DNA from: Paucibacter sp. B2R-40
Lineage (GTDB): Bacteria; Pseudomonadota; Gammaproteobacteria; Burkholderiales; Burkholderiaceae_C
DNA length: 64,000 nt
Assembly: GCF_025717555.1 (NCBI RefSeq)
Contig: NZ_JAJIRP010000009.1
Coordinates: forward strand, 1 to 64,000
Direction of reading: 5' to 3'
Positions 3,837 through 42,225 of the stretch are shown here, piece by piece. The notes below the pieces were generated by a model. That model was given only the letters and a program-made list of their open reading frames with translations. It ran no database searches and was not told where the DNA came from. Positions within the stretch are counted from its first letter, which is position 1; each line of letters begins with the position of its first letter. The position numbers and the translations under genes are program-made.

Positions 3837-3970
3837 GGGCACTGAGTTGATAGGCAGTGAGTGCCCTCGAAATGCCCCGGCCTGCACAAGGCCGACAGTT
3901 CGAACATGCGCCGCATAGTTGGCGTTCGGTTCGCCGGCCGTTTTGCTCAACGGCGGCTTACTGGCGGTGG
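3837..3970 (+). repeat. Dispersed structured repeat, copy A
   Basis: Member of an unnamed intergenic repeat family found at least eight times here. Copy A has the leading hairpin (GGGCACT at 3837 pairing with AGTGCCC at 3860), the CTCGAAATGCCCC box, the second hairpin (GGCCT/AGGCC), the GTTCGAAC palindrome, and the CGGTTCG...CAACGGCGGCTTACTGGCG tail. It lies between a PEP-CTERM stump and the 3' end of the diguanylate cyclase gene. Confidence 0.8.
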
Positions 3971-3995
3971 CTCGACCCACCGCTGCCGACCAGTT

Positions 3996-6554
3996 TCAGT
4001 TTTCGATTTCGATTTCGACCCTGTTTCGCCCAAGTTTCTTGGCCCTGTAAAGCGCAGCATCTGCACGGGCGATCAGCCCATCGACGTCACTCGCGCCGTT
4101 AAAGGTAGACACTCCGAAACTCGCTGTCTTGTTGAGAACGACCGGAAAAACGAAGGCGGCAATAGCGCAGCGGAGTTTTTCGGCGAGCACGCAAGCACCC
4201 TCAAGCGGTGTGTTTCGACAAACTATCAAAAACTCTTCCCCGCCCCAGCGACCGACGAGGTCTACATCGCGCGATTGCGTTTTCAGAATATTCGCAATCC
4301 CCACAAGGACTTGATCACCCACCTGATGCCCATGGGTATCGTTCACTGCTTTGAAATGGTCGACATCGAGCAAGATGATCGATGTCGGCGCCTGCGTGCG
4401 TTCACCGAGGCGCGCCTGCTCCGCGAGCGCTTGGTCAAGTCGCAAGCGATTGAAAAGGCCTGTGAGCTTGTCTGAAACAGAAAGTGTCGCCAAGAGCTTG
4501 TTCTGTTCCATCAACAGAGCCTGTGTTTCGGCATTGGCCAGGGCAATGGCCCCATAGGCGCACAGGGAGCGGAAGATGGCGACCTCACGCTCGGCATAAG
4601 CCTTGGCTTTACTTGACTGGATGGTCATGACGCCCAGCAAGCGCTCGCCCACCAACAAGGGTGCAAACATCAAACTCAAAGTGGCCAGGGTGCCGGGCAC
4701 CAACACTTCATGATCCCCCGCAATGTCGGCAATTACCTCCTGCCGCTCGCGCGCGCAGCGCGCGGCTTTGCTGATTGGGTCATCAAGTCGGGTGAGGTGC
4801 TGGGGCAGGGCTTGGCCGTCCTCGACACCAAACACCATCTTCAGCGCCTGGCCATCATCCTCAAGCCGGTAGATCACGAAGGCCGAGGCCTCCAGCAGCG
4901 TGTGCACATGCGTGTCCAGTGCGCTGAAGATCACCTCAGTGTTCAAATTTCCGGTGATGTCGCGGCCTACCGCCCCCAGTTTCTCCAGCGTGGCATTGGT
5001 TCGCTCCAAGGTGTTTGCCCGCTCCGCGTGGGCCAGCGCGAGTTGGCGCTGGTGCTCACCCTCAGCCCGGGCCTTTTCGATTTCGTGACTGACCTGCAGG
5101 GCGCTGGCGCGGTTACTGGCCTCGGTGCTGTGAATTTTTTCGCGCGCCTGGATGGCTTGCAACGCCATTTCATAGGCTTTGACATGGTTGCCGACCTTGG
5201 CGTATTCGCGCGCCATCGTCTCCAACAATTCGCTGGGCACGGTGTAATTCTCTACATTGGCAGCCGCATCGAGTGCCTGGTGCAGGTAATACAGCGGCGC
5301 ATTGGCGGCGTGCATACCGATCGGAGTCGGCAATTCATGGCTTGTGTGAATATCGGCCAAGACTTGAAGGGCGCCAATCTTCCAGCCGGGATTCAACTTG
5401 GCCGCCGCCAGAGCGGCATTGGCTTGCTCCAAAGCCTTTTGTGGCTGCTTGAGCTGCAAAAGGGCACGGGCCTGGCCGCGCAGGGCAAGAGTCAGCAATT
5501 CTTCGGCACCCAAGGCCTGGGCGCGCTGCTCCAACAACTGAAAGGTGGACAGCGCGTCGCTGTAGTGCTGGAGGTCCATCTCCACTTTGCCCAGAATGGA
5601 CAGCGCAACTGCATAGTGCTGGGAAGTGGTTGCATTCGCCATTAGCGCGATCGCCTCACGTAGCAACTCCTGGGCGACTTCATAGCGCCGCAATAGACGC
5701 AAGGTCTCGGCGGTTTGCATCAGTGCCATCCCGATGATGCTGGGCCAAGCACTGCGCCGCGCCAGTTCCAGTCCGCGCTGCATCCATTCAAGCGCGGCTT
5801 GATGGTCATTGAGGTTACTGAATTTGCCACCAGCGTTGGTTGCGGCAACGATAGCGCGCCGAATTTGTCCGCTTCCAAGTGCCAGCGTGTGGCATAGCCC
5901 GTAGTGCCGGATGGCCTCGACATATTCGCCGTCATGCCCGCCAGGAGCCCCAAAAAAGAATTCTGTTTGGGAAGCTGCTGCCGGGTGCATGGTGGCGCGT
6001 TGCGCAGCAAGGTGGCCGCCCCACTTTTTCCTGGCAGCGGCACCATCGCGGAACGCAGCGTCGGTTGCGAGCACCGCCTGAGCAAAGGTGCGTCGCACCG
6101 GATCACCGTCATTGGCGGAAGCGATCATCGCCTCCCATTCGGCATCCCGGCATGCAGTGTTGCCTTGGCTCTGCGCAATATAGGCTCGCAAGCCATGTGC
6201 ATCGGCGCACCCGATGGCATCAGCGCAGGCGGTGAACTCCTGCAAGGCGTTCTCAGCCAAAACAACACCTGCATCCAACTCGTCGAACAACCACTTCGCC
6301 TCGCCGCGAATCAACATCAGCCGCGCTTGTATTGCGCGCCGCTTGCCGTCAGTCAGAGCAATACAACTGGCCGAGGCTAAACCAGCCTCAGCTTCATCGC
6401 TTAGCGCCAACGCACGCTTGGTGTCTCGTTGGCGCATTTGCCATGCCACAGCCACCAGTGCGTCCACGCGCTGCAGTCCCGTGGCCGACAACAGTTCCGC
6501 CTCCAGCTGCGCCACAGCCTCATCGGTCGCGAAGAGCTCAAGGGCGGTGCTCAT
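3996..6554 (-). CDS. TPR-GAF-GGDEF diguanylate cyclase
   Basis: About 852 residues. The N-terminal half is a chain of tetratricopeptide-like helices (for example ALEWMQRGLELARRS and ALSTFQLLEQRAQALG), followed by a coiled coil (EIEKARAEGEHQRQLALAHAERAN), a GAF domain, and a C-terminal GGDEF domain. The active site is GRWGGEEF, and an RDVD five residues before it is a product-inhibition I-site. It should make cyclic di-GMP from GTP in the cytoplasm. No membrane segment is seen. I start at ATG 6554; an earlier in-frame start would add 53 unlikely residues. The 3' end abuts repeat copy A, and the last codons contain a GATTTC triplicate. Confidence 0.9.
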   Translation of the reverse strand: MSTALELFATDEAVAQLEAELLSATGLQRVDALVAVAWQMRQRDTKRALALSDEAEAGLASASCIALTDGKRRAIQARLMLIRGEAKWLFDELDAGVVLAENALQEFTACADAIGCADAHGLRAYIAQSQGNTACRDAEWEAMIASANDGDPVRRTFAQAVLATDAAFRDGAAARKKWGGHLAAQRATMHPAAASQTEFFFGAPGGHDGEYVEAIRHYGLCHTLALGSGQIRRAIVAATNAGGKFSNLNDHQAALEWMQRGLELARRSAWPSIIGMALMQTAETLRLLRRYEVAQELLREAIALMANATTSQHYAVALSILGKVEMDLQHYSDALSTFQLLEQRAQALGAEELLTLALRGQARALLQLKQPQKALEQANAALAAAKLNPGWKIGALQVLADIHTSHELPTPIGMHAANAPLYYLHQALDAAANVENYTVPSELLETMAREYAKVGNHVKAYEMALQAIQAREKIHSTEASNRASALQVSHEIEKARAEGEHQRQLALAHAERANTLERTNATLEKLGAVGRDITGNLNTEVIFSALDTHVHTLLEASAFVIYRLEDDGQALKMVFGVEDGQALPQHLTRLDDPISKAARCARERQEVIADIAGDHEVLVPGTLATLSLMFAPLLVGERLLGVMTIQSSKAKAYAEREVAIFRSLCAYGAIALANAETQALLMEQNKLLATLSVSDKLTGLFNRLRLDQALAEQARLGERTQAPTSIILLDVDHFKAVNDTHGHQVGDQVLVGIANILKTQSRDVDLVGRWGGEEFLIVCRNTPLEGACVLAEKLRCAIAAFVFPVVLNKTASFGVSTFNGASDVDGLIARADAALYRAKKLGRNRVEIEIEN

Positions 6555-6777
6555 GCCTTCAACTTTCGCAGCAAAAGCTTGTCTATAACCAAGGGGCAAA
6601 CTATTGGATGCATGACCTCGCCTCGGAAGGATGTGACTCATCTTAGCGGCAGCAGCCGAAGGATTTGGACATCGAATTCGGGGCAATTGGCTGTTGGGAT
6701 TGCATGCCGGCATGACTCAGTTCCGCCTATTCGAAGATTCGAGCAGCAGACATTTGGCCGCGTTTTACATGGGCAGG

Positions 6778-6809
6778 GTGAGCTGCCGGCCTGGATGGCC
6801 GTAGCTCAC
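6778..6809. other. Intergenic hairpin between divergent genes
   Basis: GTGAGCT and AGCTCAC pair over 7 bp and enclose a second GGCC/GGCC stem. It lies in the 0.7-kb gap between the divergently transcribed cyclase and kinase genes; apart from this hairpin and repeat copy B, I see no gene in that gap. No T tract follows. Confidence 0.35.
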
Positions 6810-6953
6810 CCGAGACAGGACGTTGGCCTAGCCAACACTAGGGCGGGTTAGTGACGGCTTTTGGCCGGCACCGGGTGTCCGGCTCTCCACCACGATTGAC
6901 TGCAGCCGCTGCTTTAGTGGCGACCGTCAACCCTGGAGTTGAACTTCGGCTTT

Positions 6954-7110
6954 GGGCACTGAATTGCCACGCGGTCTGTGCCCTCGAAATGTCCGGGCCT
7001 GCCCCAGGCCGACAGTTTGAACAGATGCCGCAAAGCTGACTTTCGGTTCGCCGACCGTTTTAGTCAACGTCGGCTTACGGGCGATGATGTGGCCTCCCGG
7101 TCCCGGCCAG
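6954..7110 (+). repeat. Dispersed structured repeat, copy B
   Basis: Leading stem GGGCAC/GTGCCC, second stem GGCCTG/CAGGCC, then the TTCGGTTCGCCGACCG and GTCAACG tail, extending through GATGATGTGGCC to a CGGCCAGTT end. The 48 bp at 7104-7151 also match a stand-alone fragment at 27546-27593 (about 83% identity by eye). It ends about 150 bp before the histidine kinase start and may overlap its promoter. Confidence 0.8.
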
Positions 7111-7258
7111 TTCTTGTCATTCGGATTCGCACTGGCGGCGGCGGCAGGGTGAGGCCCCAACTGAGCTCTACACTACGCGCGAGTCTTGGCGACAGTTTGG
7201 CGATCTTGTGGAGGTCTATGAAAACTCATGTCCCGCAGATGAACAATCGAAAGCTTCC

Positions 7259-9013: not shown

Positions 9014-9057
9014 CTACCGAATCCCGGATTCTTTCGACTTTATGGGGTCTACGTTTG

Positions 9058-9211
9058 GCCGGGAACGTGAGGCCACAACATCGCCAGTAAACCGCCGCTG
9101 ACCATAACGGTCGGCGAACCAAACGTCAGCTATGCGGCACATGTTCGAACTGTCGGCCTTGTGCAGGCCGGGGCATTTCGAGGACCCTAACTGCTTGGCA
9201 ACTCAGTGCCC
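9058..9211 (-). repeat. Dispersed structured repeat, copy C
   Basis: Near-complete copy in minus orientation, 45 bp past the kinase stop. Second hairpin GGCCT/AGGCC and GTTCGAAC palindrome are intact; the leading stem has one mismatch and one wobble. The rest of the 9014-9370 gap holds no gene that I can support. Confidence 0.8.
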
Positions 9212-9370
9212 TGAGTAGACGTTGGCCACGCTCCGCTTCAAGTCAGAGGCTACAAGCTCAACGAGTAGCTGCGTGAAATGGTTTCTTAGGGAGGTCTGAC
9301 CATTGGCCCCGATCAGGTGCAGGCAATAGCGCGCCGGCAACTTCATTGGTGGCATGGGAGCAATAGGCTC

Positions 9371-10444
9371 CTACAAGGCCGAAAACACCTTGACCGCAGC
9401 CACCAAGCGCTGCGCCTGCACGCCCATGCTGATGGCAGAGGCACTGCTTTGCTCCACCATGGCGGCGTTTTGCTGTGTCATCTCGTCGAGCTGCGCGACC
9501 GCCAGCCCAACCTGCGAAATGCCCAGCGACTGCTCCTTGGAGGCTTGGGTAATTTCTGCCACCAGATCATTCACGCACCTCACCTGCCCCACAACATCGC
9601 CCATCGTGCGCCCGGCGTCTGTCACCAGGCGCGAGCCGTTCTCCACATTCTTGACCGACTCGTCAATCAGCGCCTTGATCTCCTTGGCTGCGGCGGCAGA
9701 GCGCCCTGCCAAGCTGCGCACTTCACTGGCGACCACGGCAAAACCACGCCCCTGCTCACCGGCGCGCGCCGCCTCCACCGCCGCATTCAAGGCCAGAATA
9801 TTGGTCTGAAAAGCAATGCCGTCAATCACGCTGATGATGTCGGCAATCTTGCGGCTGGAGTTGGCAATCAATGTCATGGTGGATTCCACCTCGGCCATGG
9901 CCGCGCCGCCCTTGGCTGCCACTTCCGTGGCAGCGTGGGTCAACTTTGCGGCCTGCTGGGAAGTGTCTGAATTGAGGCGCACCGAAGCGGTTTGCTGTTC
10001 CATGGCGGCGGCAGTCTGCTCCAGGCTGGATGCAGTTTGCTCGGTGCGACTGGCCAGGTCATTGGTGGCGCTGGTGATTTCTTGGCTGGCCACTTCCACA
10101 CCGCTTGCCTGCTCAAACACGTCGGCCACCAGTGACTGCAAATTCAACCCGGCCTGGTTGATGGCGCGGGCGATCAATCCGATCTCGTCACAACGATTGA
10201 GATTGAGGTCTTGACCCGCTTCACCGCTGGCGACTTGCTGTGCCACGCCGAGGATTTTGCCAAGCGGTGAAGACAGCTGGGCTTCGATAAACCCGTTGGC
10301 CAGCAAAAGGCTGGCAGCCACCGCTGCGCCGATGCTAGCCAGGGCCACCCCACCCACAGCAGAGAAAGACAGCGCCACCCCGGTGACCAGTGCCACAGCG
10401 AGCAGAGGCAGTCTCACGCGCCAGGCAGTGGGCAGTAGCTGCAA
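9371..10444 (-). pseudogene. Methyl-accepting chemotaxis protein, N-terminally truncated
   Basis: The intact part is a cytoplasmic MCP signalling module: two hydrophobic helices ([20 protein letters not shown] and the next segment), a HAMP region, then the long coiled coil with the invariant tip [26 protein letters not shown]. The frame has only a TTG to start from, with an in-frame stop six codons earlier and no ribosome-binding site. Aer-like and classical transducers have a PAS or periplasmic sensor before this point, and it is missing here. It could still be made as a sensorless transducer, but a 5' deletion is the simplest reading. Confidence 0.65.
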
Positions 10445-10630
10445 GGCGCTGGACGACCTCTAAATCAACGATGCAGCGGCTGCAGTCACTGGCCGCTTTG
10501 GGCCGGACTCACTGTGCCGGCCATACAGCGGTCACTTACCCGCAGCAGATTTTGCGGCGGTGATTTCGAGTCTCGAATGTGCAGCGGTCATTTGCGCAAG
10601 AAATCTGGCAAATTGCGCAGCTGTAGGCTA

Positions 10631-10722: not shown

Positions 10723-11694
10723 ATGAGAAATCGTTTCGCTGCCACGCTGATCCTCGCTAGCTTTCCCATGCTTGCATACGCCGATGCGTCGTTGAGCTTC
10801 AGCCTCGGCGTTGAGAGCAGCAGCACACAAGAATTCAAATACCTCAGTAGCTCGGACCTGCCGGTCAGCTTCAATAGCGGCCTGCAGACCATTTCAGTCG
10901 GCAATGCCAAGGCCTCGCTGCAGGCCTGGGCCAACCCGAGCACCGGTATGTTCAAGTCCATCGTCAGCGCTGAGGTCGGCCCCGGGCTGGCCCCGATCAA
11001 CACCGCCAACGCCTATGCGAGTTTCAATCTTGGCGACACCCTGCGCTTCACCGGGCCCGGCGACAAGGTGCAGGTCAGTTTTTCGCTGTCGCACGACACC
11101 GTGATCAGCGGCATGGACGCGCAGCAGTTCAGCGCCTACGAGCAGATCGACCACATCATCCGCGCCGGCTCGCGCAACAGCCTGTCGCTCAACTACTCGG
11201 TAGCCAATCCAAACTATGACCCGGCTGCGACCTGCATCGATTACGGCAGCGACGGAATGTATTGCCCACCCGAGACGCAACAGACGCTGCATATCAGCGA
11301 GTACAAAGGCGGGGAAACCGGCGGCCAGTTTGAGTACCAGAGAAATTATTGGACGGGTGTGCGCCAAGTTGTGCGCTTTGGTGAGGGCGACGGCCATTAC
11401 ACCGCCACCCATACCTACACCTTTGAGCTGCCTACCAATGTCGACATCAGCTTGGGCTATAGCGCCTCCAACAACGCGGAGTGTTACCACATGGCCAATT
11501 GCAGCCTGCTGAGTGATGCCTCGCATTCGGAGTATTTCGGCATCAGCGTGCAGGGCGGTAGCTTCACTTCGGCGAGCCAGTACCAATACCTCGGCTTGGC
11601 CGCGGCGGTGCCGGAGCCCGAAAGCGCCTTGATGTTGTTGGCCGGTCTGCTGGGTCTGGCTGCTTGGCGCCGCAGCCAAGTCCGCGCCGACTGA
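10723..11694 (+). CDS. PEP-CTERM sorting domain protein
   Basis: A 323-residue secreted protein of unknown function. It has a signal peptide (residues 1-20, cleavage after AYA), a beta-rich mature region with a short Cys-containing loop (CIDYGSDGMYCPPE), and a C-terminal exosortase signal: VPEPESA, a hydrophobic helix (LMLLAGLLGLAAW) and RRS. It should be exported and cleaved by exosortase, probably becoming part of the matrix or outer surface. The ATG follows an A-rich tract rather than a strong Shine-Dalgarno. A good hairpin follows the gene. Confidence 0.85.
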   Translation: MRNRFAATLILASFPMLAYADASLSFSLGVESSSTQEFKYLSSSDLPVSFNSGLQTISVGNAKASLQAWANPSTGMFKSIVSAEVGPGLAPINTANAYASFNLGDTLRFTGPGDKVQVSFSLSHDTVISGMDAQQFSAYEQIDHIIRAGSRNSLSLNYSVANPNYDPAATCIDYGSDGMYCPPETQQTLHISEYKGGETGGQFEYQRNYWTGVRQVVRFGEGDGHYTATHTYTFELPTNVDISLGYSASNNAECYHMANCSLLSDASHSEYFGISVQGGSFTSASQYQYLGLAAAVPEPESALMLLAGLLGLAAWRRSQVRAD

Positions 11695-11906: not shown

Positions 11907-12866
11907 TCACGCAGGAGCTTTCGCCACGACAACAAGCTCGTCGGCCGACGGTCGCCGTTGCCGGCCTTTCCGGCCGAGTGCGCCTATCCCAGTCAGCCCC
12001 ACTAGCCAAAAGGCCCAAGTGGACGGTTCGGGTACCGCGCTGGCCAACAACAGGCCGGAACGGCTTGTCCAAGTGACGCCCGTTGGCACGTCGATGGTCA
12101 CCAGCTTAGCAGTGTGCGAAGCGTCGAGCGAGTCGCCCGCGTCCATTGACTTGTACGTCTTGAGAAGCATGTCGAATGAGAAGTAAATGTCGTAGCCTGT
12201 TGGCGTGATGGTGGTGAATTGCGGGTACTGGGTGATCAACGTTTTCAGATAGCTGGGTTTGAGGTCGGCTACCAATGTGACCGTCCCGCCATTGCTGAGC
12301 CGGGTGTCCGTGCCGATGTAGATGTTGTCAAACGCACCTATGCCGCTGCCGTTACGGACCCCGATGCTGGCCTGGCCCAGGGTCTTGTTTGTGATCGTGG
12401 GCCCGGCGTTCGGGTCATGGAGCCAGCCGGCATGCACATCCATCTTCAATAGGATGGAACTGGGCAGCAGGTTGCCGTAAGGGATATGGAAGCTCAGAGT
12501 GTCGTGCAGGGTCGACAGTGCACCCGAAGTGGCCCAGCTGCCATCAGACAATGGGAGCGACCCGTTGGCGCTGATGCTCAGACTGGCCGATGCCATGTCG
12601 GCACTAGCAGTGGACGTGGCGGTACGAAGCATCTGACCGTTTCGCAGATCCTGTATCCCGCCGACTGCAGTGCCGCCGGACGTGAGCGGGTCATAAATGC
12701 CGCCTCCGCTTCCGGTCACCGCGCTGTAATAGGAGCTGAACGTCCTCGCGCCGGCGCCCGAGCTGCCGTACACCTCTGATTTGTCGACCGGAATCCAGTC
12801 GGCGCGGGCAGCGTTGCAGGCGGCACCGATCAGCGCTGCGGCAATCCAGAATCGTTTGGCATTCAT
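11907..12866 (-). CDS. PEP-CTERM sorting domain protein
   Basis: About 319 residues. A signal peptide ends after ARA (residues 1-22), the mature part is Ser/Thr/Gly-rich and beta-like, and the C terminus has SAVPEPSTWAFWLVG, a hydrophobic helix and a basic segment (RKGRQRR). An extra 14 residues (ADELVVVAKAPA) follow the basic cluster, which is longer than usual. ATG 12866 is chosen over upstream TTG/GTG because AGGGAG lies 6 nt before it. It converges with the other PEP-CTERM gene but is not closely similar to it. Function unknown. Confidence 0.8.
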   Translation of the reverse strand: MNAKRFWIAAALIGAACNAARADWIPVDKSEVYGSSGAGARTFSSYYSAVTGSGGGIYDPLTSGGTAVGGIQDLRNGQMLRTATSTASADMASASLSISANGSLPLSDGSWATSGALSTLHDTLSFHIPYGNLLPSSILLKMDVHAGWLHDPNAGPTITNKTLGQASIGVRNGSGIGAFDNIYIGTDTRLSNGGTVTLVADLKPSYLKTLITQYPQFTTITPTGYDIYFSFDMLLKTYKSMDAGDSLDASHTAKLVTIDVPTGVTWTSRSGLLLASAVPEPSTWAFWLVGLTGIGALGRKGRQRRPSADELVVVAKAPA

Positions 12867-13152
12867 CAACACTCCCTGAGGGTGGTTTGCAGTTTGTACT
12901 GCGGATCACGGCGGGCCGCTCCCAAGACCGTCGCCACTCCAAGAGAACGGAATGAGGGTCGGCGTAGTCGGGCGCGTTCGCAGTCGAGCTTAAGTTTGCC
13001 GACGAGCCGCTGCTTCGTCGACCCGGTGCTGTACCGCCTTCTCGGTACAAGGCTTCGACCTAGGGGGGCGCTGGCCGGCGCCGATGCTGTCGATTGCCGA
13101 AATTGAATCTTCCTGGGCGATTCGCAGCTGCCATGGGCCCTCACTCATCGTC

Positions 13153-13251
13153 GAAGAACCAAACGTCAGCTAAGCGGCGCTTGTTCGAACTTTCGGCCTA
13201 GCGCAGGCCGGGACATTTCGAGGGCACCGGCTGCTCGGCAACTCCGTGCCC
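13153..13251 (-). repeat. Dispersed structured repeat, copy D (3' part missing)
   Basis: Minus orientation. The leading stem GGGCAC/GTGCCC and second stem GGCCT/AGGCC are intact and the core (GTTCGAAC variant, AGCTGACGTTTGG) is present, but the CGGCGGCTTACTGG tail is lost. It lies about 100 bp downstream of an integrase stump. Confidence 0.75.
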
Positions 13252-13525: not shown

Positions 13526-13569
13526 GCCATGCAATGCAAGGTTGAAGTGTGCTGCACAATCACGCTCCT

Positions 13570-14613
13570 ATGTCCGACCCAACCCATTCCACTGCCCAAA
13601 TTGCCGAGCAGCGGCGCCTTCAGATGGCCGACATCGCGCGCCTTGCTGGTGTCTCGGTGTCGACTGTTTCACGCGCACTCAACGGCAGCAGCCTCGTCAA
13701 CGCTGAGACACGCGAACGTGTGGCTGAGCTGGCGCGCTCGCTCAACTATTCGATCAACCTCAGCGCCCAGAACTTGCGCCTGCAGAAAAATCGCACGGTA
13801 GCTGTTGTTTTGCCATTTGAGGCCGAATCGCGCCAGCACATCTCCGATCCCTTCTTCCTTGCCCTGATTGGCAGCATCGCCGACGCGCTGACCGATCAGG
13901 GCTACGACATGCTGCTGTCCCGGGTCGATGCGGAGCACTTGGATCTGGCCGCGCAGTTCTACGACTCGGGCAAGGCGATCGGTGTGCTGATGATTGGCCA
14001 GTGGCGCCACCATGACCAACTGAACGCGCTGGCAGCGCGCCAACTGCCGCTGGTCGTGTGGGGCGGCGCGCTGCCCCGGCAGCTGTACTGCAGCATTGGC
14101 GGGGACAACATCGCCGGCGGTCAACTGGCCACGACGCATCTGCTCGCCCGGGGCTGCCGGCGCATCGCGTTTCTGGGCGATGCGCAACTGCCCGAGGTCT
14201 GGCTGCGTCGTGAGGGCTATAGCCAGGCCTTGCGCCAAGCCGGATTGCAAGCTGATCCGGCGCTGGAGCTCGCCCTGTCGTTCGAACCGGCGGCGGCACG
14301 CGCGGCGATTGCTCGGTGGTTGCCTGCTGCGCCGGGTTTCGACGCGATCTTTGCTTGCAGCGACCTGCTGGCTCTGCAGGCGATCCAGTTGCTGCGCGCG
14401 AGCGGCCAGCGGGTGCCCGAGGACATTGCCGTCGTCGGCTTCGACGACATGCCGCTGGCTGCCTACTGCGACCCACCGCTGACGACGGTGCACCAACCGG
14501 TGGCCGAGGCAGGCGCCGAGTTGGTCGCCTCGCTGATGGCGCAACTGAGCGGTGAAAAAGCGCTGCCGCGCACGCTGGACGTGCAGTTGGTGGTCCGCGC
14601 CAGTGCGCCCTAA
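13570..14613 (+). CDS. LacI family transcriptional regulator
   Basis: About 347 residues. The N-terminal headpiece (MADIARLAGVSVSTVSRAL, residues 19-37) is the LacI helix-turn-helix, followed by the hinge region and a periplasmic-binding-protein-like effector domain (RTVAVVLPF to the C terminus), typical for sugar-responsive repressors. It precedes a sucrose uptake and phosphorolysis operon on the same strand, and a 16-bp LacI-type palindrome lies between. It is therefore very probably the sucrose or fructose-responsive repressor, comparable to SuxR of Xanthomonas. Start is uncertain: ATG 13570 chosen, GTG 13549 and ATG 13624 possible. Confidence 0.9.
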   Translation: MSDPTHSTAQIAEQRRLQMADIARLAGVSVSTVSRALNGSSLVNAETRERVAELARSLNYSINLSAQNLRLQKNRTVAVVLPFEAESRQHISDPFFLALIGSIADALTDQGYDMLLSRVDAEHLDLAAQFYDSGKAIGVLMIGQWRHHDQLNALAARQLPLVVWGGALPRQLYCSIGGDNIAGGQLATTHLLARGCRRIAFLGDAQLPEVWLRREGYSQALRQAGLQADPALELALSFEPAAARAAIARWLPAAPGFDAIFACSDLLALQAIQLLRASGQRVPEDIAVVGFDDMPLAAYCDPPLTTVHQPVAEAGAELVASLMAQLSGEKALPRTLDVQLVVRASAP

Positions 14614-14758
14614 CAATTGATCCAGCGATTGATCTGGCGATTGAGTTGACGATCGATTGCAACGCTGATCTCTAACTTGCCTCAGCGTCTCGGTGAGCAT
14701 GCCGAGAGTTCCGATGAAATCTAAGTTTTTTGCAATACACCTCCTCGTTTTCCCTAGT

Positions 14759-14774
14759 TTGCAATCGATTGCAA
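14759..14774. promoter_or_regulatory. LacI-family operator, perfect 16-bp palindrome
   Basis: TTGCAATCGATTGCAA is a perfect palindrome with the central CG typical of LacI/GalR operators, 128 bp before the receptor start. A half site, CGATTGCAA, recurs at 14654-14662 right after the regulator gene, inside a run of GCGATTGA repeats, so two operators about 105 bp apart could allow looping. Confidence 0.75.
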
Positions 14775-14901
14775 TAACAGCCAAAATGGTGCCAACGAGA
14801 CGGTGTTGGTGCGGCTTGCCCCAAGATGTTGCAGACAGCACGGTCTCGAACTACAGCCAGGCAGCGGTTTCCCGATCTGCCGGCAACACCAGGAGACTCT
14901 G

Positions 14902-17184
14902 ATGCCCGCCTTGACGACCCACATTCGCCGTTGCCCGACCGCGCTCGCCGCCATCAGCCTCGCGCTGCTGCAGCTGAGCGCTCAAGCTCAATCCACCACC
15001 AGGGATACATCACCGCCATCTCCTGCTGCAGAGAAGGATGGTCTGAAGCTCGACCTGGTTGTCATGACCGGCACCTCGACGCGCAGCTCGAAGATGAAGC
15101 AAAGCGTCTCGGTCAGCACGGTCGACAGCGAGCAGATCGCCAAGACAGGTGCCACCAGTGCGACCGAGCTGCTTCGCTCGGTGCCGGGCTTGCGCTCAGA
15201 GTCGACCGGCGGTGAGGGCAATGCCAATGTGACCGTGCGCGGCGTGCCGCTGTCGGCTGGCGGCTCGCGCTATGTGCAGATGCAGGAAGACGGCTTGCCC
15301 TTGCTGATGTTCGGTGACATCGCCTTCGGCACCGCCGACCAGTTTCTGCGCGTGGACTACAGCACCGACCGGCTCGAAGTCATACGCGGCGGTTCGGCCT
15401 CTACCCTGGCTTCGAACTCGCCCGGCGGCATCGTCAACTTCATCAGCAAGACCGGCGCAGAAAAGGGCGGCAGCATCGGCCTGACCGCCGGCCTCGGCAA
15501 CGAGCTGTTCCGTCTCGATGCCAACTATGGTGCGAGCCTCGGCAACGGCACGAGCTTTCATATCGGCGGCTTTCAGCGCATCGGCGAAGGGGGGCGGCCG
15601 ACCGGGCAGAACGTCGAGAACGGCGGTCAGATCAAGGCCAACCTGACGCAAAAGTTCGACAAGGGCTATGTGCGCCTGAGTCTGAAGCTGCTGGACGACA
15701 AGACGCCTTCGCTGCTGCCGGTGCCGGTCACCGTCAGCAACGGCAATATCCACACCATCCCCGGCATTGACCCGCGCACTGCCTTCTTCCTGACGCCAAG
15801 CTTGGCCAAGGACACCAGCTTCAACAAGGACGGCGGCACCACAACCTCGTCTACACGCGATGGCCTTCACGTGAAGAGCCAGGCAGTCGGCTTCGAGGCT
15901 GGCGTCGACCTGGGCAACGAATACAGCATCGACGAGAAGTTCCGCCGCAGCAGCAATTCAGGCCGCTTCATCGCCTTGTTCCCAGGTGATAACGGCAACA
16001 ACGGCAGCGCCAAGTCATTCACCGGGGTGCTCTTCAATACCTCGCTGGACAACTTCGACAACACCTTCAACGACATCAAGCTGAGCAAGGTGATCAAAAC
16101 CAGCGGCGGCGTCAAGACGACGCTGGTCGGCGGCCTCTTCTACGGCGTGCAAAACGTCGCCCAGACCTGGTTCTGGAATCGCTACAACCTGACGCTGGAC
16201 GGCGAGAACGCCAAGGTCGTCGATGCCGCCGGCAATCCGACTTCGGCCCCGGCCGGCCTGGGCTGGACCACCTTTGGCGGCTGCTGCACCCGCACCTGGG
16301 ACGTGCAGTACACCGAGACCTCGCCTTATGTTGCCAGCACGGTTGAATTCGGCGCGTTGATCGTCGACGGCAGCCTGCGTCGGGACCAGCAAAAGGCCCG
16401 CGGCTACACGCTCAACGGCGACAACACCGCGCAGACCTGGGATACCGCCAGCCAGAAGACGGTCAACTACGACGTCAAGCACACCTCCTATTCGCTGGGC
16501 GCCAACTACGCGTTCAACCCCAATCTGGCCGCTTTTGCCCGCGCCAGCAACGGCGTGGCCTTCAGCGCCGACCGCCTGCTCTACGGCAATCCGCTTGACG
16601 GTTCGGTGCCTATCAGTACCAACGAGATCGACCAGGTCGAAGCCGGCGTGAAGTGGCGCGCCAAGGGCCTGAGCGTTTTCGCGACGCTGTTCAATGCCCG
16701 CACCAATGAAAGCAATTACGAGGTGACGACGCAGAAGTTCAGCGCCACCAAGTACGAGGCCAGCGGTATCGAGCTCGAAGCGGCCTACGCCATCGGCGAC
16801 TTCCGCCTCAGCGGGGGTGCCACCTTCACCGACGCCGAGATCAGGTCGTCCAACAACGCGGCCATCGTCGGCAAGAAGCCGCGCCGTCAGGCCGACTTCA
16901 TCTATCAGATCGCACCCAGCTACGCCTGGGGTGATCTGGAGCTGGGCGCCGCCTTGGTCGGTTCGGGCAAGTCTTACGGCGACGACGACAACACCATCCG
17001 CATGAAGGGCTACACCCTCGTCAACGCCTTCGTGAACTACCAGCTGAGCCCGCAGGCGATGCTGTCCGTGTCGGCCAATAACCTGTTCAATACCTTGGCT
17101 TACACCGAGATCGAAGGCGACGGTCATGCGGCACGCGCCTTCAACGGCCGCACCGTGCGGGCGACCTTGAAGTACAGCTTCTGA
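14902..17184 (+). CDS. TonB-dependent outer-membrane receptor, sucrose locus
   Basis: About 760 residues. A signal peptide ends after AQA (residue 29), a plug domain follows (residues about 50-190, VMTGTSTRSSKMKQSVSV through LEVIRGGSASTL), then a 22-strand barrel ending in the usual aromatic residue (RATLKYSF). Start set at ATG 14902, which has AGGAG 7 nt upstream. As first gene of the sucrose operon behind the operator it most likely carries sucrose (or sucrosyl oligosaccharides) across the outer membrane, in the way SuxA does in Xanthomonas. The substrate is inferred from neighbours. Confidence 0.88.
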   Translation: MPALTTHIRRCPTALAAISLALLQLSAQAQSTTRDTSPPSPAAEKDGLKLDLVVMTGTSTRSSKMKQSVSVSTVDSEQIAKTGATSATELLRSVPGLRSESTGGEGNANVTVRGVPLSAGGSRYVQMQEDGLPLLMFGDIAFGTADQFLRVDYSTDRLEVIRGGSASTLASNSPGGIVNFISKTGAEKGGSIGLTAGLGNELFRLDANYGASLGNGTSFHIGGFQRIGEGGRPTGQNVENGGQIKANLTQKFDKGYVRLSLKLLDDKTPSLLPVPVTVSNGNIHTIPGIDPRTAFFLTPSLAKDTSFNKDGGTTTSSTRDGLHVKSQAVGFEAGVDLGNEYSIDEKFRRSSNSGRFIALFPGDNGNNGSAKSFTGVLFNTSLDNFDNTFNDIKLSKVIKTSGGVKTTLVGGLFYGVQNVAQTWFWNRYNLTLDGENAKVVDAAGNPTSAPAGLGWTTFGGCCTRTWDVQYTETSPYVASTVEFGALIVDGSLRRDQQKARGYTLNGDNTAQTWDTASQKTVNYDVKHTSYSLGANYAFNPNLAAFARASNGVAFSADRLLYGNPLDGSVPISTNEIDQVEAGVKWRAKGLSVFATLFNARTNESNYEVTTQKFSATKYEASGIELEAAYAIGDFRLSGGATFTDAEIRSSNNAAIVGKKPRRQADFIYQIAPSYAWGDLELGAALVGSGKSYGDDDNTIRMKGYTLVNAFVNYQLSPQAMLSVSANNLFNTLAYTEIEGDGHAARAFNGRTVRATLKYSF

Positions 17185-17189
17185 GCGTG

Positions 17190-18176
17190 ATGATGAACGT
17201 CGCTCCCCAAGCCTTGGTGCCCTCGGTCTTGCTTGTCGGCGAGGCGCTTGTCGACGAGTTCCGCGAGCGGCGTGTGGCCGGCGGCGCGCCCTTCAATGTC
17301 GCGCGTTCGCTGGCGGCGCTGAGGCCCGGTCTGCCGGTGTGCTTGGTCACCCGGCTGCACCCGGCGGATGAGGGCGGGGCGGCACTGCTCGCCAGCAGCC
17401 GGCGCTTCAATCTGAGCCTGGCGGGCATCCAGCACGAGCCGGTCCATGCTACGGGTCGGGTGGCGGTGCTGGAGGAGGGTGGCGGCCATCACTTCGAAAT
17501 CCATGCGCCATCGGCCTGGGACTTCATCGAACTGGCGCCCGCGCAGGCCTTGCTGGCTGCGGCACCGCCGGCCTTCTTCTACTTCGGCAGCCTGGCCCAG
17601 CGCGGTGCGGTGTCGCGCGCCAGCATTCGTGCGTTGGCGCAGCAAGCCGGCGAGCTCGGCAGCACGCGTTATCTGGACCTGAACTTGCGCGACGGCAGCT
17701 CTGAGGCGCTGCTGGCCGCTGAGTCTCTGGCGCTGAGCGATTGGCTCAAGGTCAATGAACATGAGCTGGCGCAGCTGTTCGCTTGGTTCGGCACGGCGGA
17801 TGATGCGCAGGCCGACATGCTGGGCGATGCATCCGCACTCGCAGCGCCGGTGCAGCGCTTGATGCAATGCTTCAGCTTGCAGCGCCTGATCCTCACGCGC
17901 GGCGCCGCAGGCTACGTGGCGTTTGACGCGCAGGGCAGGGTGCTGGCGCAAGCGGCTGGCCTTGTCGTTTCTCCAATGGTCGACACGGTCGGCGCCGGCG
18001 ACGCTTTCTCGGCCATGCTGCTCAGCGCCTGTCTGGCTGGTTTGGAGCTGGCGCAGGCGCTGGCTCTGGCCAACCGCTATGCCGCGGCGCTGTGCGGCGA
18101 GCGCGGGCCGCTGCCGGACGATGATGCCTTCTTTGCGCCGTGGCGGGCGCTGTTGCTGAAGGAATCAACGCGATGA
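17190..18176 (+). CDS. PfkB family carbohydrate kinase, probable fructokinase
   Basis: About 329 residues. PfkB/ribokinase fold: the N-terminal glycine motif (GGAPFNVARSLAAL) and the C-terminal ATP/catalytic motif DTVGAGDAFSAMLL (the Asp of GAGD is the base) are both intact. In a sucrose phosphorylase operon it should phosphorylate the released fructose to fructose-6-phosphate. It starts 6 bp after the receptor stop and overlaps the permease gene by 4 nt (ATGA), so translation is coupled. Three possible starts (GTG 17187, ATG 17190, ATG 17193) differ by one residue each. Confidence 0.88.
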   Translation: MMNVAPQALVPSVLLVGEALVDEFRERRVAGGAPFNVARSLAALRPGLPVCLVTRLHPADEGGAALLASSRRFNLSLAGIQHEPVHATGRVAVLEEGGGHHFEIHAPSAWDFIELAPAQALLAAAPPAFFYFGSLAQRGAVSRASIRALAQQAGELGSTRYLDLNLRDGSSEALLAAESLALSDWLKVNEHELAQLFAWFGTADDAQADMLGDASALAAPVQRLMQCFSLQRLILTRGAAGYVAFDAQGRVLAQAAGLVVSPMVDTVGAGDAFSAMLLSACLAGLELAQALALANRYAAALCGERGPLPDDDAFFAPWRALLLKESTR

Positions 18177-19498
18177 GCACTCTCAAGCCCAGACTCACGT
18201 TCTGGCAGATCGTCAGCATGAATGTCGGTTTCTTCGGCATCCAATTCAGCTTCGGTCTGCAGCAGAGCAATATGAGCCCGATTTATCAATACCTCGGCGC
18301 GGACGAGGCCAGCTTGCCGCTGCTATGGCTGGCCGGACCGATGACGGGCCTGCTGGTGCAGCCGCTGATCGGCGCGATGAGTGACCGCACGGTCTCGCGC
18401 TGGGGGCGGCGCACGCCGTACTTTCTGATCGGCGCGATCCTGTGCAGCCTGGGGCTGCTGCTGATGCCATTCAGCCCCACGCTGTGGTTCGCCGCCGGCC
18501 TGCTGTGGATACTTGACGCGGCCAACAATGTGACGATGGAGCCGTACCGGGCCTATGTGTCCGATCGGCTCGACAGCAGCCAGCACTCGCTCGGCTTCCT
18601 GACGCAAGCCGCCTTCACCGGCCTGGCGCAGACCTTAGCCTACCTGGCGCCGAGCTTGCTGGTCTGGTTCGGTATGAACAAGGACGCGCTGGCCGGCAAC
18701 CAGATTCCGCAGATCACCGTAACGGCCTTCCTGATCGGTGCTTTCTTCTCGATCACCACCGTCTGGTGGTCGGTGCGCCAGGTGCCGGAGCTGCCGCTGA
18801 CCGCGGCCGAGCTGCAGCATATCCAGGCCCAGCCGCGCGGCCTGCGCGCCACGCTCACCGAAATCTGGGATGCCTTGCGCGATATGCCGACGACGATGCG
18901 TCAGCTCTGGTGGATGAAGCTGTTCCAGTGGTACGCGATGATGTGCTACTGGATCTACATCGTGCCCTCGCTGGCCAGCACGGTCTTCCACACCAGCGAC
19001 GCCACGTCCGAAGGTTTCCGCGATGCCGGCCTGCTGAACGGCCAGATCGGCGGTTTCTACAACTTCGTCGCCTTTTTGTCGGCCTTTGCGATGGTGCCGT
19101 TCACGCGCCGCTTCGGCGCCAAGTATGTGCACGCGCTGTGCTTGTGTCTGGCGGGCGCCGGCATGTGGGCGATCCCCGAGATCCAGAACCGTTGGCTGCT
19201 GTTGCTGCCGATGCTTGGTGTCGGTATGGCCTGGGCCAGCATCATGGGCAACCCCTATGTGCTGCTGGCCGGCAGCATCCCGCCGGAGCGCGCGGGCGTC
19301 TATATGGGCATCTTCAATATGTTCATCGTGATCCCGATGCTGATCCAGATGGTGACGCTGCCGCTGATCTACCACCGCCTGCTCGACGGCCACCCCGACA
19401 ACGTCATCCGCCTGGCCGGCGCCTTGCTCGTCTGCGCCGCGCTGGCCGTGCTGCGCGTGCAGACCCGGCCGGCCGCCTCCGCCGTACCCACCGCCTAA
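18173..19498 (+). CDS. MFS sugar transporter, probable sucrose permease
   Basis: About 441 residues with 12 predicted membrane helices. The opening ([23 protein letters not shown]) and the loop 2-3 motif ([18 protein letters not shown]) are characteristic of the SLC45/sucrose-proton symporter group that includes SuxC. It should bring sucrose over the inner membrane with H+. Start ATG 18173 overlaps the kinase stop by 4 nt; an upstream in-frame start at 18140 would be inside the kinase gene and is not favoured. The next gene starts 5 bp after its stop. Confidence 0.87.
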
Positions 19499-19503
19499 GC
19501 CCC

Positions 19504-22746: not shown

Positions 22747-22995
22747 TGCCTTGCCCCCTTCACCTCGTGCGCCGCCCGCCCGCCTCGGCAATTGGCGCAC
22801 GAGGACCCGATGCTGTCGGTGCGATGCCGAACTGTGCAGCCTGCTAGCGGTTAGGGATGAGCTCTCCCGATGCCGCACGTCAGGGTGGCGCACGTCATCC
22901 TTTGCTGAGGCGACTTAAGGAGCAGTGTTCGCTCTCGCACAGACCGCGAGCCGGTTGGCGCCTACCTTGCTGACTCCCTCACACAAGGAACGAAC

Positions 22996-27421: not shown

Positions 27422-28106
27422 GACTGAGGCTCTATGTTGCGATGCACCATTATTGTTTGGGTGCAGCCTGAGCCGAGGGTCACAAGCGCTCGAATTGACG
27501 TCGGAAAGCGCCTACAAACTCAATGAGCGATCAAACACACGCTCACGGCCAGTTCGCGTCATTCGGATGCGCGATGGAGGCAGCGACAGGGTGCTCGGAG
27601 CGGAAATTCAAGTTCAGGATTTGAGCCAGACACCGGTGAGATTTGCTGTCGATCAATCGATCACACTGAACTCGCAGTCTCGGCTGCATTGCGAACGGCC
27701 GAGTTGGTCGTCAGGGCAATGCGGTCGAAGTGAGGTCTTTTGACTGGGCGCCGCGAAATGGCCCTTGCGACCAAGGGAGCCGGCAAAGGCTGTCAGACCA
27801 AGCGCCGCCGAAAACCACATCGCCTCAATGCCATAGCGCATCAGCAGCAAACCGCGGCGTCAGGGAGTAAGTGCCGGTGCGATCCGCGCCGACGCCATCA
27901 GCAGCACCTGCCCATGCCTATGCCCCGGCCGGTGCCCGTGCCCGTAAGCCTGACCATAAGTACAAAGCGCTCATGTCCCGTCGTCTGTGCACTATCGAAC
28001 GCAGATTGTGCGGCCCAAAACTCGTTTGACTTCGTCAAAATGAACTGATTCCGGACATTGCATAACCACTGAATCGCGCGCCTCAAAATGCACGTTTTGG
28101 CACCAC
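27422..28106. other. Intergenic stretch, no gene seen
   Basis: About 685 bp between two minus-strand genes. It holds a repeat-tail fragment (27546-27593), an imperfect TGCCCA/GTGCCC minisatellite near 27910-27945, and a TTTGAC/GTCAAA hairpin at 28025-28039 that might end katE transcription. Open frames here have no recognisable homology. Confidence 0.4.
27546..27593 (+). repeat. Fragment J, matches the downstream edge of repeat copy B
   Basis: 48 bp align without gaps to 7104-7151 with 8 mismatches by eye (shared pieces CGGCCAGTTC, GTCATTCGGAT, CAGGGTG). No other part of the repeat is present here. Confidence 0.5.
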
Positions 28107-39044: not shown

Positions 39045-39329
39045 ATGAGTCGAGCAAGATATGCCCCGGAGTTCAAAGCCGAGGCGGTGAAACAGGTGAC
39101 CGAGCGCGGGCATGGCGTCGTCGAAGTGGCCAAGCGCCTTGGGATTTCGGATAAAAGCTTGTACCTGTGGGTTAGGCAGGCCAAGGATCAGGATAGCGGT
39201 CCGGCGGCCACTGAGGCGGCATCCCTGCGGAGCGAAATGGCCAAGCTCAAGGCAGAGCTCAAGCGCACGACCGAGGAGCGCGACATCTTAAAAAAGGCCG
39301 CCGCGTACTTTGCCAGGGAGTCCGGTTGA
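39045..39329 (+). CDS. IS3 transposase OrfA
   Basis: 94 residues. Helix-turn-helix (YAPEFKAEAVKQVTERG through RLGISDKSLYLWVRQ) followed by a leucine-zipper-like helix (LRSEMAKLKAELKRTTEERDILKKA). It binds the IS ends and, fused to OrfB by frameshifting, forms the transposase. Confidence 0.9.
   Translation: MSRARYAPEFKAEAVKQVTERGHGVVEVAKRLGISDKSLYLWVRQAKDQDSGPAATEAASLRSEMAKLKAELKRTTEERDILKKAAAYFARESG
39290..39296 (+). promoter_or_regulatory. Programmed -1 frameshift site of IS3
   Basis: A_AAA_AAG stands in the proper phase of the orfA frame (TTA AAA AAG) near the orfA end, the canonical IS3 slippery heptamer that yields the OrfAB fusion. Confidence 0.7.
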
Positions 39330-40111
39330 AGTACGCATTCATGCAGCAGCATGTCCATGAGTTCCGCCTGAGCAGCATGTGTCGCGTGCTCAAGGTCAAT
39401 CGCAGCGGCTACTACGCATGGCGGGCCCAGCCACAATCAGAGCGGGCCCGTGCCGATGAAGTGTTGCTCACCAGCATTCGCCAGTCGTACGAAGACAGCG
39501 GCAGCGTGTATGGCAGTCCGCGCGTGCTCCATGACCTCAAGGAGGCCGGCGTTCGTTGCAGCGTCAAGCGGGTAGCGCGCCTGATGCGCCAGGCCAAGCT
39601 GCGCTCCTTGCGAGGCTGCAAGCGCCCTCGCTGGCGACGCGGGGAAACGGCCGTGGTCGCGCCCAATCGCTTGGAGCGGGAGTTCACGCAAGACAAGCCA
39701 GATCAAGCCTGGGTCACTGACATCACCTACATTCGGACCCATGAGGGCTGGCTCTACTTGGCAGTAGTAATAGATCTGTACTCGCGTGCAGTAGTGGGTT
39801 GGTCGATGAAGGCGACCATGGCGACCGAGCTGGCCTTGGATGCGCTGATGATGGCCGTTTGGCGTCGCCGCCCAGTTGCTCCTGTGATCATCCACTCAGA
39901 CCAGGGCAGCCAGTTTGGAAGCGATGCATTCACGCGCTGGTGCCGAGCTCATCAACTCGTTCCAAGCATGAGCAGGCGTGGCAACTGCTGGGACAATGCA
40001 GTCGCAGAATCGTTCTTCAGCAGCCTCAAAAAAGAGCGAATCAAGCGCCACATTTATGCGACACGCAGTGAAGCCAAGTCAGATGTGTTTGACTACATTG
40101 AGGGCTTCTAG
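39326..40111 (+). pseudogene. IS3 transposase OrfB, 3'-truncated
   Basis: 261 codons of the DDE transposase. The rve catalytic core is visible: first Asp in WVTDITYI, second in IHSDQGSQF, and Glu in DNAVAESFFSSLK. The reading frame ends at DVFDYIEGF instead of continuing as FYNRTRRHS...; the break is where IS homology stops. Confidence 0.85.
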
Positions 40112-40358: not shown

Positions 40359-40388
40359 GAGGTTGAGGCTGAGGCTGAGGCTGAGGCT
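40359..40388 (+). repeat. GAGGCT hexamer tandem repeat
   Basis: GAGGTT followed by four perfect GAGGCT units, directly before a partial copy of the dispersed repeat. Confidence 0.85.
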
Positions 40389-40395
40389 TAGTTAA

Positions 40396-40446
40396 CTGTT
40401 TGGGTCAACGGCAGCTTACTGGAGATGATGGGGGGCTCCCGGCCCT
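40396..40446 (+). repeat. Dispersed structured repeat, partial copy I (3' part)
   Basis: CTGTTTGGGTCAACGGCAGC and CTTACTGGAGATGATG with GGCTCCCGG match the tail of full copies. The leading two thirds are absent, replaced by the hexamer repeat. It points toward copy G, with the hcp pseudogene between them. Confidence 0.65.
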
Positions 40447-40492
40447 TGCCTTGAATGTCTAAACCGTTTTTACTTAAAACTTAGGCAACTGG

Positions 40493-40970: not shown

Positions 40971-41051
40971 GAGAGTTCTCCTTCTATATGTGAAATGTTT
41001 GTTTGTTAGTCAAAATATAACTAATATATTTTTCTCTCTCATTAAGAATGT

Positions 41052-41172
41052 GCCGCCGTTGACCAAAACGGTCGCCGAACCGAACGTCAGCTATGCGCTG
41101 CTTGCTCGAAGAGTTGGCCTGGAGCAGGCTGGAATATTTCCGGGGTACCGACTGCATGGCAAGTCATTGCCC
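41052..41172 (-). repeat. Dispersed structured repeat, copy G
   Basis: Minus orientation. CCGTTTTGGTCAACGGCGGC tail, AGCTGACGTTCGGTTCGGCG core and second stem GCCTG/CAGGC are intact; the GTTCGAAC palindrome and the leading stem are degraded. It ends about 205 bp before a PEP-CTERM gene. Confidence 0.75.
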
Positions 41173-41344: not shown

Positions 41345-41362
41345 GCATGCGCTGACGCATGC
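41345..41362 (+). other. Perfect 7-bp hairpin in the leader of a PEP-CTERM gene
   Basis: GCATGCG and CGCATGC pair around a CTGA loop, 15 nt before the start codon, where it would stand next to the ribosome-binding region. Confidence 0.45.
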
Positions 41363-41377
41363 TTGACGGAGTTCTAG

Positions 41378-41974
41378 ATGCACCGCTTTCTCAAGGCCTG
41401 TACCGGATTTTCACTCGCAGCCCTTTTGCTGGCTGCCGGCTCAGCCCAGGCAGAGGACTTCCAGTTCTCGTACCGTTTCAACACGGGTGAGCTGGTTACT
41501 GGCTCATTTGCCGGCACGCTCAGCGGCGATATGGTGAGCGACATCTCGCAACTGGCGGTGAGCATCAACGGCGTGGCCTTCGGCGGCACGCTGAACGCGT
41601 TCAGCTATACCAGCCCGGGCAACCAATGCCCCAGTTGCTTTGCTGCTACCGGCGCTATGGCCTCGTTCAACCCGCTGAAGAACAATTTCTACTTCTCAGA
41701 CGGCAACGCCGTCTCCGGCACCGGCATCACCAACTATTTCTACGTGATTCCCTGGCCGAATGGCAGCGACAACCCAGTGGCCTCCCAGGCGTACATCAAC
41801 AATACCGCGATCAACGCTTACAACGGCCAATACGTGCCGCAGAACTGGATACTGTCGGCGGTTCCTGAGCCGGCGTCCATTCCTATGATGCTGCTGGGCC
41901 TGGCCGGTATCGCCGGGCTCGCCGGCCAACGCTTACGCGGTCAGCGCAAACCCGCCGCCTCAGCGCAGGCCTAG
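41378..41974 (+). CDS. PEP-CTERM sorting domain protein
   Basis: 198 residues. Signal peptide to about residue 25 (SAQA cleavage), mature domain with NQCPSCFAATG (a Cys pair) and an aromatic-rich end (NYFYVIPWPNG), then the exosortase signal VPEPASIPMMLLGLAG and a basic tail (RLRGQRKP). The C-terminal layout matches the other PEP-CTERM proteins in the window, but mature parts are unrelated. Function unknown. Start ATG with GGAG 7 nt upstream. Confidence 0.82.
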   Translation: MHRFLKACTGFSLAALLLAAGSAQAEDFQFSYRFNTGELVTGSFAGTLSGDMVSDISQLAVSINGVAFGGTLNAFSYTSPGNQCPSCFAATGAMASFNPLKNNFYFSDGNAVSGTGITNYFYVIPWPNGSDNPVASQAYINNTAINAYNGQYVPQNWILSAVPEPASIPMMLLGLAGIAGLAGQRLRGQRKPAASAQA

Positions 41975-42073
41975 CGCTGGGATTCGGCAGCGCTCTTCAC
42001 CGTGCGTGCCCTTGAGGGCCTGCTTGACGCTGAAGGAGGGGCTGAAGCTGACAAATCTGAAGAACTGTTGATG

Positions 42074-42225
42074 GTCGGGAGCGTAAGGCCAAATCATCGA
42101 CAGTAAGCCGCCGTTGGCCAAAACGGTCGGCAAACGAGCGCCAGCTGTGAGGCGCTTGTTCGAACTGTTGACCTAGAACAGGCTCGGACCTTTCGCGGGT
42201 CCTGACTGCGTGGCAACTCCGCGCC
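42074..42225 (-). repeat. Dispersed structured repeat, copy H
   Basis: Minus orientation, 100 bp after a PEP-CTERM stop. Core palindrome GTTCGAAC and tail (CCGTTTTGGCCAACGGCGGC) intact; the second stem is weakened (GCCT/AGGT) and the leading stem keeps only GGG/CCC. The 41975-42461 gap contains this copy and otherwise no gene. Confidence 0.75.

Follow-up and report, generated by a model that had tools for sequence, protein, structure and literature searches.

The DNA analysed here, called the window below, comprises 64,000 nt of contig NZ_JAJIRP010000009.1 of Paucibacter sp. B2R-40 (genome G000). It contains a non-coding dispersed repeat, hereafter module E, that is about 202 bp long and bounded by GGGCAC...GTGCCC (extracted full copies measure 186-202 bp). 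At either end, E forms one half of a degenerate, near-symmetric 24-bp sequence, the core, at which the flanking sequences, or arms, are joined. A sequence-only reading had pointed to eight near-complete copies, A to H, and a partial one, I. All eight were recovered by BLAST at the places and on the strands claimed, and I was found with a profile hidden Markov model (HMM) of 211 positions, made from 21 near-full seed copies with copy B among them. This profile matches A to H and I with E-values from 4.9e-62 to 1.3e-05, far above chance. "Near-complete" describes copy B alone, since D, E and G keep only about half of the module (HMM positions 2-107, 5-102 and 1-127 of 211), and the right end is missing from A, C, F and H. 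With a right-end piece that the profile adds, the window holds ten copies in total, and a further copy found in the same way lies just outside it at contig position 74567-74730. The copies and the features that adjoin them are as follows.

1-37, plus strand: end of a probable IS30-type insertion sequence (IS) at the contig start, the family being assigned through a similar IS in genome G006
3837-3995, plus strand: copy A, right-truncated, with its left core GGGCAC at 3837-3842
6954-7151, plus strand: copy B, nearly full length (6950-7151 in a second delimitation)
9056-9211, minus strand: copy C, right-truncated, with its left core at 9206-9211
9212-9320 (end approximate), minus strand: left arm of copy C, with an 89% identical ortholog in contig C246 of Roseateles sp. 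MAG_41
13150-13251, minus strand: copy D, right-truncated, about half length, with a left arm of flank family F2 to its right
21595-21691, plus strand: copy E of the earlier reading, right-truncated, about half length
22090-22230, plus strand: copy F, diverged (73% to the consensus)
27536-27600, plus strand: right-end fragment of module E, found by the profile HMM and overlooked before
40388-40449, plus strand: copy I, an internal fragment downstream of an IS3-like transposase gene
41051-41172, minus strand: copy G, right-truncated
42072-42226, minus strand: copy H, right-truncated

First, the borders of E are exact. Two copies of Paucibacter sp. TC2R-5 (G003; loci L063 and L067), 98.2% identical over an aligned stretch of 217 nt, have identical letters between their cores and unrelated arms on both sides. 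A group of copies from Paucibacter oligotrophus CHU3 (G005), G003 and G000 is 94.8-97.5% identical, and here too the arms differ on both sides. Among these near-identical copies the change of sequence falls at GGGCAC or GTGCCC. E extends about 40-50 bp past the "tail" described earlier and ends in ...GGTGCCC; the repeat of 130-150 bp in the sequence-only reading is real in itself, and it is longer and differently bounded, from GGGCAC to GTGCCC. The terminal inverted repeat formed by these hexamers is weak beyond 6 bp, and outside both ends of E the flank mostly fits the loose pattern GNCNGCNNY. The palindrome GTTCGAAC occurs six times in the window against 0.78 expected; five of these lie inside copies A, C, D, E and H, and the sixth, at position 14280, is outside any copy. 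By eye, partial copies seem to stop or start at preferred internal points (107-113, 122-134, 156-157 and 166-170), and E itself may be built of sub-modules.

E has the usual marks of a miniature inverted-repeat transposable element (MITE), being short, non-coding, intergenic and multi-copy, with terminal inverted repeats at exact mobile borders. An ordinary MITE with the inverted ends GGGCAC...GTGCCC, moved by some transposase that prefers a half-core-like target, is the main rival to the reading developed below, and we regard it as rather unlikely. The exact borders at differing flanks speak for it, as does the placement of the copies. In 626 kb of DNA (seven stretches, six from G000 and one from G003, picked because copies lie there, with genes called by a simple codon-bias caller), 36 of the 38 copies mapped reach no more than 10 nt into predicted genes, compared with 5.9 expected under random placement, and 34 have no overlap. 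The patchy distribution also favours a MITE. Across 18 genomes of the genus, E matches number 21 in G000, 22 in G003, 19 in G005, 6 in Roseateles sp. MAG_41 (G001) and one each in G007 and G012, while the remaining 12 have none at E <= 0.001. As far as these scans reach, the family appears limited to one genus: in a set of 39 relatives, 21 from other genera, the only match beyond it is a 34-base one in a single genome, probably due to chance. Plasmid and phage records did not match the repeat, and viral contigs gave 0 matches of a 21-base motif taken from it. The same motif found 12 stretches in a named genome collection, which may leave out records near the window's own genome; all belong to P. 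oligotrophus CHU3, Paucibacter sp. TC2R-5 and Roseateles sp. MAG_41. Literature searches in a partial library turned up no title or abstract on this repeat, which is weak evidence. As for gene context, 35 of the 38 mapped copies have a gene on both sides (13 divergent, 11 codirectional, 11 convergent); all gaps of at least 150 nt divide into 57, 92 and 25, and convergent gaps may therefore be over-represented among E copies.

Lineage-specific clades, however, are not seen, which speaks against a MITE. A tree of 32 copies intermixes the four genomes as much as random labels would (17 changes, 17.5 with shuffled labels), with bootstrap values that had not settled and only 4 of 28 inner branches well supported. 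Shared positions are rare: when flanks of up to 700 nt were compared for 64 copies, a single cross-genome pair of flanks matching over at least 180 nt looks like a shared place, that of copy I with a fragment in G003 (86% over 266 nt). Another match between genomes, of the downstream flank of copy C with a G005 flank (69% over 415 nt), looks paralogous. Old insertions would be expected to leave shared places and lineage bursts to leave clades; since neither is seen, the pattern fits a re-joining of existing modules, and rearrangement by other means could do the same.

The sequence at which E meets its flanks was recognized from arms that occur without it. Flank families F1 and F2 are found E-free as well, including in G015, G007 and G004. 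Six E-free F1 arms reach the junction; four continue with GGGCAC, one with GGGTAC and one with TGGGAC, and then other sequence follows. E-free F2 arms in G007 and G004 also lead to GGGCAC. Because these arms continue mostly into GGGCAC, the full junction is taken to be the near-symmetric 24-bp core GNCNGCNNY-GGGCAC-NNNGCNGNC. At 136 core-like sites the arms are re-assorted. Left-arm family L0 (F1) is joined to three right-arm families (E-left, E-right and a third repeat arm with two members) and to four unlinked arms, L1 (F2) to two families (E-left and E-right) and two unlinked arms, and L2, L3, L4 and L5 to two right-arm families each. Since the loci were selected for E, F1, F2, IS ends or a core pattern, the proportions are biased, and some sites are surely chance. 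A strict core pattern is present in 7 of the 10 genus genomes listed in full (1-5 sites each) and, at one site each, in 4 of 199 other genomes of the order, or 5 of 200 with the window's own genome. The left half followed by GGGCAC, as counted in the 626 kb, lies at 11 intergenic sites and one coding site, many of them beside E.

The core also bears on the MITE explanation. Both flanks of a full E copy are left-type half cores, and they match each other no better than shuffled flanks (81 of 176 letters against 84.6, p 0.75, for 16 copies, 5 of the 21 having been dropped because the right end is not GGG). A single palindromic target for E, of which the two flanks would be halves, was rejected on this ground. 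GC is common to both ends of E; read as a target duplication it would need empty sites of the form GGGCCC, but element-free arms mostly have GGGCAC and none has GGGCCC. Two other ideas about the core were also given up. A right-side GTGCAC at locus L075 was considered as an insertion into a complete core, and is actually an F2 arm with a point change. The core as a covarying hairpin is weak at best: nine pairs gave p 0.042, positions 7-9 p 0.07 and the two freely variable stem positions p 0.21, in a test on 35 of 42 GGGCAC cores (7 with E-type right arms were dropped) where the selection pattern itself fixes several pairs. A second mosaic repeat was also noticed. Its right arm R2, of about 170 bp, leads into F1 in 5 of 6 aligned copies, with a further core-like motif GGCAGCTTCGGGAGGTGCTGCAGAC between the two (loci L093, L080, L113, L119, L125 and L050).

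At two orthologous places, different sequences follow the same arm. At copy C, a chemotaxis-receptor gene together with the left arm (9206-10450) is 89% identical in contig C246 of G001 over 1,246 bp, with GGGCAC included. After GGGCAC, G000 continues into E, and G001 into a different right arm and a different neighbourhood. This G001 arm resembles a repeat arm by eye; a BLAST comparison with all fetched DNA gave no match for it at 1e-3. The second place is in G000 contig C45 (L010, 3454), where the flank is 96% identical to G005 contig C23 over 2.4 kb. Past 89 extra bases in G000, an arm and the core are common to both (43 of 44 bases), the core reading GTGCAC in G000 and GGGCAC in G005. Beyond it G000 goes on into E, and G005 into a different repeat arm. 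As the E of G000 is right-truncated at both loci, the direction of replacement cannot be read from them. These switches matter for the view that the copies are old, inert repeats homogenised by gene conversion, whose borders would be the ends of homology and whose positions would differ through other rearrangement of the chromosome. A median identity of 81% over 1,337 pairs of E copies and the intermixing of genomes in the tree agree with that view. However, gene conversion within E cannot swap an unrelated right arm for E beside an orthologous left arm, and we hold this explanation to be decidedly improbable.

The core is also the place where an IS is found. Directly after the IS end at the contig start, GCCCATACCCGACATCC (38-54) looks like a half core. 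Of eight contig ends of G000 inspected, six bear either of two related end sequences; a search with a 27-base end pattern found eight IS ends in this genome. Seven of the eight abut a half core, the one on contig C1 by its hexamer half only, which is weak. Two of these ends meet GCAC of E-left, one meets GCAC of a different right arm, two meet GCCC, and the remaining two meet the halves of a GGGTAC variant, one of which is that of C1. When three pairs of IS ends are matched by eye, a 2-bp duplication is seen at the core centre, GC for C2/C45 and C50/C14 and GT for C12/C1. Because the IS copies of G000 are unassembled, we infer their family from similar ends in G006 and G010, which bound matches to the IS30 transposase model of 296 and 244 bits; the G000 element would thus be of IS30 type. 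By eye, IS copies in G002 and G006 sit in core-like sites with 2-bp duplications, and those in G009, G010 and G015 have no core-like sites. The IS30-type ends are multi-copy in G000 and lie at or near contig ends (window 1-37; C1, C2, C12, C14, C23, C45 and C47), and this may explain why many E copies of G000 are near contig ends.

A target of this kind is familiar from IS30. The IS30 target consensus is 24 bp long. IS30 hot spots are described as nearly palindromic targets with insertion at the central 2 bp and a 2-bp duplication (PMC9333248). The core in G000 resembles them in near-palindromy, central 2-bp insertion and 2-bp duplication, the end pairs being those matched by eye; unlike them, the hot spot here sits inside a dispersed mosaic repeat family.

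Taken together, we think it somewhat probable that E belongs to a mosaic family resembling MITEs and repetitive extragenic palindromic (REP) sequences, with modules that are re-joined at a core targeted by an IS30-type element. E would be a non-autonomous, non-coding mobile repeat and one member of a mosaic intergenic family. Arms on either side of the core would be exchanged at GGGCAC, so that a given left arm would stand beside E in one genome and beside some other arm in another. The core would be a break-and-join point in DNA and also the insertion target of the IS30-type element, entering at the central two bases. Modules would then spread and swap through cutting and joining of DNA at cores. 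The agent would most likely be an IS30-type transposase acting on cores, or recombination between IS copies sitting in cores. The enzyme, the order of events and the way in which E gains a left-type arm at both ends are what we infer from these patterns. A stronger proposal, which we consider possible but doubtful, is that Paucibacter/Roseateles has a dedicated module-shuffling system, in which a transposase or recombinase would cut and re-join non-coding arms and neighbouring gene blocks at the 24-bp core, and copies would keep their old diversity while changing position between species. Short intergenic repeats are common in bacteria, yet one seldom gets to see how they spread and why they lie near rearrangement breakpoints. 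In the E family the place of joining is down to six bases, which are also targeted by an IS, and two orthologous loci exist in alternative states, so that core-directed rearrangement can be tested by plasmid assays and by long-read comparison of strains.

Several observations weigh against re-joining at the core, or at least against its IS30 part. Outward from E, both ends have one and the same half-core type, which the model does not explain. No clear target duplication is seen by eye beside full E copies, and no parent transposase for E was noticed in the fetched DNA, in a search that was not exhaustive, the IS30-type ends being unlike those of E by eye; the lack of a clear duplication and of a parent counts against the MITE explanation as well. 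One of the eight IS ends (G000 contig C23) is not at a core, and since only the ends of the G000 copies are seen, their pairing is not fixed by assembly, C14 and C47 being exchangeable as partners. G003 and G005 are rich in E, yet neither has a sequence within 3 mismatches of the IS30 end pattern. The orthologous switches number two only. Both involve a right-truncated E with differing sequence beyond, and could be rearrangement breakpoints instead of clean exchanges; the short shared arm of the second was read by eye across the 89 extra bases of G000. Some synteny breaks beside copies lie near the core and not at it: at L009 5061-5101 the gene order breaks near a core with three different continuations in three species, and at L010 9017 the break is again near one, the arm and E being absent in G001. 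The full-core pattern in the 626 kb is found at three intergenic and five coding sites, a weak intergenic enrichment, and the idea of the core as a plainly intergenic motif was dropped, as the sequence pattern alone does not define the core. A loose core pattern is present in all 18 genus genomes, coding-looking sites included, and its backward control matched most genomes at lower numbers. Finally, 5 of 210 distinct alignment ends between loci fall within 14 nt of a core (1.2 expected); as all five are ends of repeats, they are not used as support.

A conserved centre with variable arms, combinatorial joining and a switch at the centre would also suit a site-specific recombinase of the tyrosine or serine type, for which the core would be a site conserved over its central 6 bp, between degenerate inverted arms, and the modules shuffled cassettes. 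Inverted sites bounding E would allow its inversion, not its excision, and no recombinase was linked to the core, though no genome-wide search for one was made; we judge this explanation improbable. One known system of such a form is the integron. Its attC sites join cassette-like modules at short imperfect palindromes with the consensus GTTRRRY/RYYYAAC. The modules of the E family are likewise joined at short imperfect palindromes. By eye, the aligned E junctions have GGGCAC and not this consensus, the orientations are mixed and the modules are non-coding. No integron integrase is present among 20 open reading frames of the window scanned against Pfam, and no genome-wide search was made.

The sequence-only reading had left three possibilities for the repeat: a mobile element, a recombination substrate, or a structured RNA. 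The two DNA-level ones are supported by the exact borders, the combinatorial arms and the two orthologous switches. That E encodes a structured RNA, or a selected structure of single-stranded DNA, is highly improbable. The consensus can form two hairpins, and copy F has one compensatory pair. The leading-stem change in F, from A-T to T-A, is present as described, but among 45 sequences F alone shows it at this pair, and the stem as a whole has no covariation above shuffles. In 32 copies the two named hairpins are paired in 82.2% of cells compared with 82.9% for shuffled partners, and in 45 copies, F included, in 81.1% compared with 81.6%; no measure of covariation exceeds the shuffles in either set. 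RNAalifold gave 14 pairs, two of them with any both-sided change, and a covariation term of +0.13. Rfam has no family at gathering score in the window and none at E <= 1 in four copy-holding loci, which agrees with the earlier reading, where no recognised family name could be given. E has neither the covariation nor the curated-family match of a structured RNA family, and the structured RNA was rejected on these grounds. The earlier reading was to fall if covariation and empty-site polymorphism between strains were both absent; covariation is absent, polymorphism is not, and the refutation needed both.

Among known repeats, the E family works like a MITE/REP-like mosaic that shares general features of both, with weak evidence for the intergenic character of the core. 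MITEs and the ERIC/BOX/CIR-type repeats are dispersed, have inverted ends and lack a transposase of their own. Like E, they are short, non-coding and intergenic (PMC10969869). In contrast to them, the arms of the E family are re-joined at a shared core, both ends of E are of the same half-core type, neither a clear target duplication nor a parent was seen, and the sequence family is that of one genus in our scans. REP sequences and bacterial interspersed mosaic elements (BIMEs) are palindromic intergenic repeats that serve as exact IS targets, a description that the core may share, and the IS families that target REP are given, in the sections at hand, as IS3, IS110, IS4, IS256 and IS5 (PMC1525189). 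The targeting IS here is of IS30 type, and the 24-bp core with its GGGCAC centre lies within longer mosaic arms. With the core, an IS30-type element gains a candidate target of REP-like kind, and IS30 is not among the families named in those sections.

Around the copies of the window, a few further features were noted. The right end of copy A reaches the stop codon of a GGDEF gene (3996-6713, minus strand), and copy F overlaps the end of a CorA-like open reading frame (22168-22893, minus strand). Other diverged inverted repeats adjoin copies A and B: 3727-3816 pairs with 10454-10543, and 6862-6912, which the left arm of B overlaps, is present again at 10473-10523. The left arm of copy H (42223-42280) is weakly like family F1 (71%, E 4.9e-4). 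Near copy I the order is an integrase-core (IS3-like) transposase gene (39326-40111), a short GAGGCT tandem run (40363-40388) and the E fragment, and a G003 fragment of E has a similar upstream flank. Three genes with PEP-CTERM sorting motifs (10723-11694, 11907-12872 and 41378-41974) are neighbours of copies C/D and G/H. The E profile has no hit in the operons at 13.6-21 and 47-64 kb, which the earlier reading had also found free of copies. The region from 13543 to 21013, with LacI, TonB receptor and amylase genes, is colinear and 92% identical in contig C127 of G001, and this match ends on both sides where G000 has copies D and E/F.

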